Assembly (NCBI RefSeq): GCF_006715085.1
Contig: NZ_VFMM01000002.1
Location: 434,001 to 498,000, forward strand
DNA length: 64,000 bases
Reading direction: 5' to 3'
DNA from: Kribbella jejuensis
GTDB taxonomy: Bacteria; Actinomycetota; Actinomycetes; Propionibacteriales; Kribbellaceae
In this document: one piece after another, positions 56,763 through 57,941 of the stretch
How positions within the stretch are numbered: position 1 is the stretch's first letter
How the letters are laid out: each line of letters opens with the position of its first letter
Translations under genes and position numbers: made by a program
The notes under the pieces: model-generated
Databases searched by the model: none
The model's input: only the letters and a program-made list of their open reading frames with translations
Told to the model about the DNA's origin: nothing

Positions 56763-57845
56763 TCAGAAGACGCCGGCGAAGGGGTCCTCCAGTTCGCTCC
56801 AGTTGAGGCTGGCGAGTTCGGACTCGGTCAGCAGGCAGGCATCGAGGATGGCCTGCAGGCGGGCCGGGTCGAGGCCCATACCGGTCGCGACCACCGTGCA
56901 CTCGGCGAGGTGCTCGGTCTCGGACCATTCGCCGAGCATGCCGAGCGACGCGCTGTACCCGGCCGACTCCCAGCGGACCCGTTGGGTCGGACGGTTCGCC
57001 AGCCAGACCACGCCGCGACTGCGGACCACGCCGTTGACGATGTCCTCGAGCGCGTCGTTCAACCGGGCCGGATGCAACGGTCGCGTCGACCGCCACAGTA
57101 CCGTGGTCACGCCGTCGCCACTCGGCTGCACGCGGTCCGACTGGTTCGACACAGCAAGTTCGCCCGCCCACGCCTCGGCCGCGTCGAAGTCGAACCGCCC
57201 GGTCCGTGCCACCGGCCCCTCCGGTACGCCGGACGCGCCCGCCCGCACCACCGACGTCCGTGGGTTCAGATGCTCCAGCAGGTGCTCGAGCCGCACCAAG
57301 GCCGTACTCCGATGCGCATTGGCGAGTACGCACACGTCGGCGTACTCGATCTGGCGGGCCGTCAGCTCCGCGACATTGCGCCGATCCGGCAACCCGAGCG
57401 CGAGCCCGCGTTCGGCGAGCAGCTCGTCGCCGGACAGTTGCTCGACGAGCAGTACGGCGTCGACGACGCAGGTGACCGTGTCGACGACGATCTCCGGCAG
57501 CGCCGCGACCAGCGTGCTGACCAGCGGCCGCGCCTCCATCGCGGGTGGCGCCGCGAGCACGACGTGATCCCAGTGCGCACGCGCGACGAGGGCCTCGAGC
57601 AACGGCACCAGCGACTCGATCAGCTGGCATGCACCACAGTCGTCGCCGACCGTGAACTCACCCGCGTCGATCGGCCCGGACCGGTCCTGCACCCGCCAGG
57701 TCAGCACGCCGCGACCGGGCAGCTCGTCCTGATCGACCGCCACGACCACGGTGGTGGCGTCGGTCATCGCTTCCAGCACGGGCTCCCGCAGCGTCGCGGA
57801 CAGCCCGACCAACAAGGACAACGGAGTCTTCGACTGGGCGGTCAT
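56763..57845 (-). CDS. CobW-like (COG0523) protein without a P-loop
   Basis: 360 residues from the ATG at 57845 (a GTG at 57851 is in frame but lies before the likely transcription start). The later part matches CobW metallochaperones: DDCGACQLIESLVPLLEAL (in place of the usual CxCC region), TCVVDAVLLVEQLSGDEL, RQIEYADVCVLANAHR (in place of NKTD) and the C-terminal STRPLHPARLNDALEDI, with VVRSRGVVWLANRP. The N-terminus reads LSLLVGLSATLREPVLEAM, where GTPases have GxxGxGKT, so GTP binding is doubtful. A Zur box in its promoter ties it to zinc starvation. Confidence 0.82.
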   Translation of the reverse strand: MTAQSKTPLSLLVGLSATLREPVLEAMTDATTVVVAVDQDELPGRGVLTWRVQDRSGPIDAGEFTVGDDCGACQLIESLVPLLEALVARAHWDHVVLAAPPAMEARPLVSTLVAALPEIVVDTVTCVVDAVLLVEQLSGDELLAERGLALGLPDRRNVAELTARQIEYADVCVLANAHRSTALVRLEHLLEHLNPRTSVVRAGASGVPEGPVARTGRFDFDAAEAWAGELAVSNQSDRVQPSGDGVTTVLWRSTRPLHPARLNDALEDIVNGVVRSRGVVWLANRPTQRVRWESAGYSASLGMLGEWSETEHLAECTVVATGMGLDPARLQAILDACLLTESELASLNWSELEDPFAGVF

Positions 57846-57851
57846 GCACAC

Positions 57852-57873
57852 ATTATATGAAAACGGTTTTCAT
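57852..57873 (-). promoter_or_regulatory. Zur box and consensus promoter of the CobW-like gene
   Basis: ATGAAAACGGTTTTCAT (57857-57873) is a perfect palindrome around one central base and fits the actinobacterial Zur pattern TGAAAA-N5-TTTTCA. On the minus strand it runs into a perfect -10 TATAAT (complement of 57852-57857), six bases before the ATG. A weak -35 TAGACT lies 17 bases further up. Zinc-loaded Zur would block this promoter. Confidence 0.85.
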
Positions 57874-57941
57874 CAGTCTACCGGTACGGCGTGTCCGGAA
57901 AAGAACAGGCCGTCGCCCCGATCGTCTGGTAGGCAAGGGAC

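Follow-up and report, generated by a model that had tools for sequence, protein, structure and literature searches.

Metal delivery by proteins of the G3E family is coupled to GTP. How, then, could a family member that has lost its nucleotide-binding motifs act in zinc starvation? This question is raised by a gene in a 64,000-nucleotide stretch of the Kribbella jejuensis genome (hereafter the window), for which the original prediction had envisaged a Zur-controlled zinc chaperone unable to bind GTP, for example one acting as the partner of an active CobW protein. The span of 56763-57873 assigned to the gene at that time holds the coding part, 56763-57845, whereas its end at 57873 takes in the operator.

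Promoter and operator of the CobW-like gene

The features of the locus are compiled in Table 1. Read along the minus strand, the -35 hexamer TAGACT is followed by the palindrome ATGAAAACCGTTTTCAT, the -10 hexamer TATAAT, the bases GTGTGC, and the ATG at 57845. The palindrome fills the 17-bp spacer between the two hexamers and overlaps with TATAAT by one base, and six bases separate the -10 hexamer from the ATG, all of which confirms the originally predicted Zur-type arrangement. As the palindrome is located within the promoter spacer, RNA polymerase should be kept out by a repressor bound there, and the short distance between TATAAT and the ATG predicts a leaderless message, in support of the leaderless-type promoter that had been proposed. 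An in-frame GTG at 57851 is an alternative start, but the ATG was preferred, as it is retained at this position in relatives, followed by the same protein start.

Table 1. Coordinates of the gene, its cysteine site and its promoter elements in the window
Feature	Position	Strand	Evidence
P-loop-less COG0523/CobW-fold protein gene	56763..57845	-	translation: 360 aa and stop, ATG start
CxxC site Cys70-Gly-Ala-Cys73, replacing CxCC	57627..57638	-	invariance of Cys70 and Cys73 in orthologues
-10 hexamer TATAAT	57852..57857	-	sequence; conserved in orthologous promoters
17-bp perfect palindrome ATGAAAACGGTTTTCAT, predicted Zur operator (core 57858-57872)	57857..57873	.	sequence
-35 hexamer TAGACT	57875..57880	-	sequence

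With up to three mismatches permitted, the palindrome pattern matched once within the window (0.03 matches expected), and the exact core TGAAAANNNTTTTCA has a single occurrence across the 7.5-Mb genome. The box was judged against the mycobacterial Zur consensus given in an excerpt of PMC7174638. With a Zur-type palindrome lying over its promoter, the gene is a predicted member of the Zur regulon. A Zur-type box was present in all 18 named Kribbella loci examined. It is unlikely to be the operator of the divergent GNAT gene, as only 7 of these 18 loci have a GNAT frame at a distance of up to about 215 bases from the start of the gene; the box thus goes with the CobW-like gene.

Conservation within the genus

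Orthologues with at least 80% identity were found in 37 of 38 Kribbella genomes; genome G026 has no orthologue, and in genome G031 the orthologue is present in two pieces, the N-terminal one with 59% identity. The palindrome core and a TATA[ACG]T -10 hexamer are present in all 36 parsed orthologous promoters, with six bases between the -10 hexamer and the start codon in 34 cases and seven in the other two. The -35 hexamer is TGGACT in 29 of the 36 promoters, TAGACT in four, TTTACT in two, and different in one. Cysteine invariance was assessed in 37 orthologues; the promoter set comprises 36, since the K. sandramycini orthologue (L046, the same gene as L151), whose ATG does not lie in the conserved reading frame, was excluded for this reason. 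In this orthologue (L151:3985-4030), the box is present, and a frameshift, another start, or an assembly error could be behind the displaced ATG.

In 35 comparisons with the window gene, dN/dS values ranged from 0.08 to 0.21, which, together with the presence of the gene in 37 of 38 genomes, rules out a decayed pseudogene.

The CobW fold is kept without nucleotide motifs

The COG0523 body is indeed retained, as originally noted: the Pfam model CobW_C matched with 61.1 bits (cut-off 22, E 9.8e-17), in agreement with a CobW fold of COG0523, and the Pfam model cobW matched marginally and partially (23.1 bits, cut-off 20.7), covering profile positions 57-178 of 180 and leaving the P-loop part unmatched. 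In an alignment with P-loop relatives, GLSATLRE is found at the position of GFLGAGKT, and NAHR at the position of NKxD, so that both Walker A (GxxGxGKT) and the guanine motif are absent, in line with the earlier claim. Across the orthologues, the Walker A position reads GLS[AT]TLR[EQGD]PVL. The ExxG motif is lost as well, with APPAME in the window protein, and GCICC of the P-loop relatives corresponds to DCGAC, which means that CGAC or CGSC stands in place of the CxCC metal motif. C70 and C73 are invariant in the 37 orthologues and across all 33 rows of alignment A2, and the same 37 orthologues contain further conserved cysteines. As the window protein has DDCGxCQL where its paralogue in the same genome (paralogue B, see below) and the mycobacterial protein Mrf have HxCxxC or a closely similar motif, its metal site may differ. 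At the level of sequence, operator and promoter conservation, motif loss, the predicted fold, purifying selection, and the lack of a P-loop COG0523 partner in the genome can be regarded as established.

The AlphaFold2 model of the window protein had a pLDDT of 88.4, and the nearest solved fold was YjiA (Foldseek E 1.1e-17, TM normalized by query 0.37-0.42). The comparison of YjiA with the model in VIA gave Z scores of 14.1-14.6 over 271-289 residues at an rmsd of 8.8-9.5, a high value, which suggests that the relative placement of the two domains in the crystals is not the one in the model. A phmmer search of the PDB with the single window protein gave no match, and in a profile search of the PDB, YjiA was the only sequence match. 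According to the model, the G3E/YjiA fold appears to be kept while the nucleotide site is absent, which would make a GTP cycle impossible for this protein.

Relatives in the phylum

A COG0523-like protein without GTPase motifs and without the second cysteine of CxCC has a precedent in Rv0106, as described in an excerpt of Haas et al. (2009). MSMEG_6069, which like Rv0106 goes by the name of Mrf (Mpy recruitment factor) in mycobacteria, is a member of the Zur regulon and sits between rpmB and rpmE2 (PMC7174638, excerpt). In the corresponding part of the review PMC13418864, Mrf is described as a CXXC protein that is stabilized when zinc-free and through which the hibernation factor Mpy is recruited to zinc-free ribosomes. 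Wider Zur regulons are treated in excerpts of PMC2823685 and PMC6103462. The original view of a zinc chaperone without GTP binding is therefore right with respect to the missing GTP motifs, but in light of Rv0106/Mrf it poses no new puzzle.

In a phylum survey of 296 genomes, 46 matched the Mrf model NF047431 and six exceeded its cut-off. All six genes above the cut-off (L053-L058) encode proteins with CxxC and without a P-loop; the name "GTPase" that NCBIfam gives to this model misfits the members seen. The window protein reached 131.3 bits with this equivalog model, below the curated cut-off of 375, and its top NCBIfam match was the ZigA model with 142 bits (cut-off 600). As a true P-loop CobW protein obtained 162 bits with the Mrf model and thus outscored the window protein, this model cannot discriminate, and a decision between Mrf and ZigA by model score fails.

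In a tree of 61 rows, 14 P-loop and 47 P-loop-less rows were split on a branch with 100/100 support. A quick tree of 83 rows reproduced this split with an SH-aLRT support of 99; here, a single row with a degraded P-loop was placed with the P-loop rows. For the 61-row tree, the 83 rows were reduced by removing five that were long or odd and by thinning those of the window lineage, of paralogue B and of the P-loop proteins; L127_16 and L088_5 were omitted from both trees. The window lineage, paralogue B and Mrf each formed one group in the 61-row tree. The order among these three and the others had a support of 57/83, and the stem of the window lineage was long (1.66), so that a sister relationship of the window lineage to Mrf is not established. 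The degraded P-loop GFLRAGKSD of another CobW-like protein (L076), which falls outside the main P-loop-less group, is perhaps an independent loss.

Of the genes examined, all 9 of the window lineage, all 11 of paralogue B and 5 of the 6 for Mrf had a Zur-type box upstream, in a scan that allowed up to three mismatches and was based on approximate starts and mononucleotide shuffles. Such boxes also precede the genes of some P-loop relatives. No Zur-type box was found just upstream of the P-loop-less genes of family f4, which may be due to their operon location or to a different regulation. This family (L064, L073, L121, L128, and similar genes) is P-loop-less yet keeps a CxCC-like CACC.

A second paralogue and other Zur-type boxes in the genome

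The genome contains two CobW_C genes, the window gene and paralogue B at C1:2803730 (L004). Paralogue B is likewise P-loop-less, has CVSC, and is preceded by a two-mismatch box just upstream. It is flanked by a divergent L33 gene and, on the other side, by an L31 gene; this L31 has no cysteine, and none occurs in the part of L33 that was read. Paralogue B is present in 36 of 38 Kribbella genomes. As it is paralogue B that, much like Mrf, has genes for zinc-free ribosomal proteins (L33 and L31) on its two sides, the window gene represents an additional copy kept across the genus. The orthologue flanks retrieved for the window gene contained no match to L31 or L33 patterns. A Kribbella-type paralogue was also seen on a contig titled Streptomyces sp. 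SID13031 (L158), a record that may be misnamed.

A znuA-type gene carries a one-mismatch box at its start, and one of the three FUR-family genes of the genome lies about 2 kb from it; we infer that these two genes are znuA and zur. Genome-wide, the two-mismatch box occurred at 29 sites, in comparison to 4 in a reversed control. Of ten sites that were inspected among the 29, three lie next to zinc-related genes, namely the window gene, the znuA-type gene and paralogue B. At the other seven (L006, L007, L010, L013, L015, L017, and L018), visual inspection of a rough list of frames revealed no recognizable zinc gene. Further Zur-type boxes, a search for which had been proposed originally, thus exist at the znuA-type gene and at paralogue B, but with 29 sites versus 4 in the control, the two-mismatch box is not useful as a list of the Zur regulon. 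A literature search found no paper on Zur in Kribbella.

A zinc-gated adaptor as candidate mechanism

That the window protein belongs to the P-loop-less COG0523 proteins on the Rv0106/Mrf-like side and is regulated by Zur is a conclusion that we draw with considerable confidence. With more reservation, we lean towards the view that it is a GTP-independent, zinc-gated adaptor, a Zur-repressed pseudo-GTPase similar to Rv0106/Mrf and probably linked to the ribosome. For this mechanism, we infer Zur binding, a leaderless start, zinc gating and a ribosome role. In the presence of zinc, Zur on the palindrome between the -35 and -10 hexamers would block RNA polymerase. In the absence of zinc, the promoter would open and a leaderless mRNA would start at or next to the ATG. 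The protein would then serve as a zinc-gated protein-protein adaptor with the zinc-free form being active, as mycobacterial Mrf recruits Mpy, and its partner could be the single HPF of this genome, which is a long one. By kinship, a ribosome link is likely; a role of the window protein itself at the ribosome or in hibernation, for which we argue by analogy, is put forward tentatively. What bears against the Mrf-like reading is that the gene in the Mrf-type neighborhood is the other paralogue and not the window gene.

In principle, paralogue B could do the Mrf job, and the window protein could have another client, such as Clp proteolysis, for which it would be an adaptor, or a single zinc enzyme. 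The position of paralogue B next to the zinc-free L33 and L31 genes and the long stem and altered cysteine context of the window lineage agree with such a division, but as nothing points to any specific client, we regard it as rather doubtful. Somewhat less probable still is a GTP-independent zinc carrier that binds zinc via CxxC and other residues and hands it over to a client enzyme in starvation. The COG0523 ancestry, the top match to ZigA, the Zur-type box, and the invariant Cys70 and Cys73 along with the other conserved cysteines are in line with a carrier, whereas the GTP coupling of metal delivery in the G3E family speaks against it, as does the loss of the second CxCC cysteine and of the nucleotide motifs, a combination also seen in Rv0106/Mrf with its reported recruitment role.

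The original suggestion of a partnership with an active CobW protein was not upheld. The two PF02492 matches of the genome are UreG and Ffh, and a P-loop COG0523 gene is consequently absent from it; a P-loop CobW query matched only the two P-loop-less genes. An intact P-loop CobW gene does occur in three of the 38 Kribbella genomes (G001, G004, and G006), but 35 have none while the window gene is kept in 37, so that a role as partner subunit of such a protein is rejected for this genome, as far as recognizable P-loop partners are concerned, and highly improbable in general. A broken P-loop CobW gene is found in genome G009, where a fragment with in-frame stops (C1:4369925-4370252) has 63-80% identity to the G004 gene, which suggests that the loss of P-loop COG0523 is ongoing in the genus.

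Implications

The occurrence of P-loop-less, mostly CxxC-containing COG0523 proteins in several actinobacterial families, often encoded under Zur-type boxes, indicates that the Rv0106/Mrf architecture is no peculiarity of mycobacteria. Kribbella keeps two such copies under strong selection and has almost no P-loop relative left, which makes it a place outside pathogens to study how such a protein works. As a speculation to which we give little weight, the response of Kribbella to zinc starvation would rely on two COG0523 proteins without a P-loop and, in most species, on none with a P-loop. The paralogue would be tied to zinc-free ribosomes and the window protein would be a distinct adaptor, likewise gated by zinc, that has a client of its own; actinobacteria would thus have replaced gating by GTP with gating by zinc before diversifying it.

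Comparison with known systems

The kind of protein is not new. Because its architecture and regulation are already found in the literature on Rv0106/Mrf, what is added here is a second copy throughout the genus, with a leaderless-type promoter that is almost invariant. Like Rv0106 and MSMEG_6069 (Mrf), the window protein is COG0523-like, predicted here to be under Zur-type control, and devoid of GTPase motifs and of the second CxCC cysteine. Unlike Mrf, it stays under the cut-off of the Mrf model, has DDCGxCQL in place of a form like HGCxxCxxR, and is encoded by a gene that has its own leaderless-type promoter and is not beside genes for zinc-free ribosomal proteins. With the zinc metallochaperone GTPases ZigA and YciC, it shares the COG0523 fold and, as predicted for the window gene, regulation by zinc starvation, but it differs from them in having no P-loop or NKxD, in having CGAC instead of CxCC, and in its score with the ZigA model (142 versus 600). 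E. coli YjiA (1NIJ, 4IXM) provides the closest solved fold and, in contrast to the window protein, is a GTPase with P-loop and CxCC, with 17% identity over the structural alignment.
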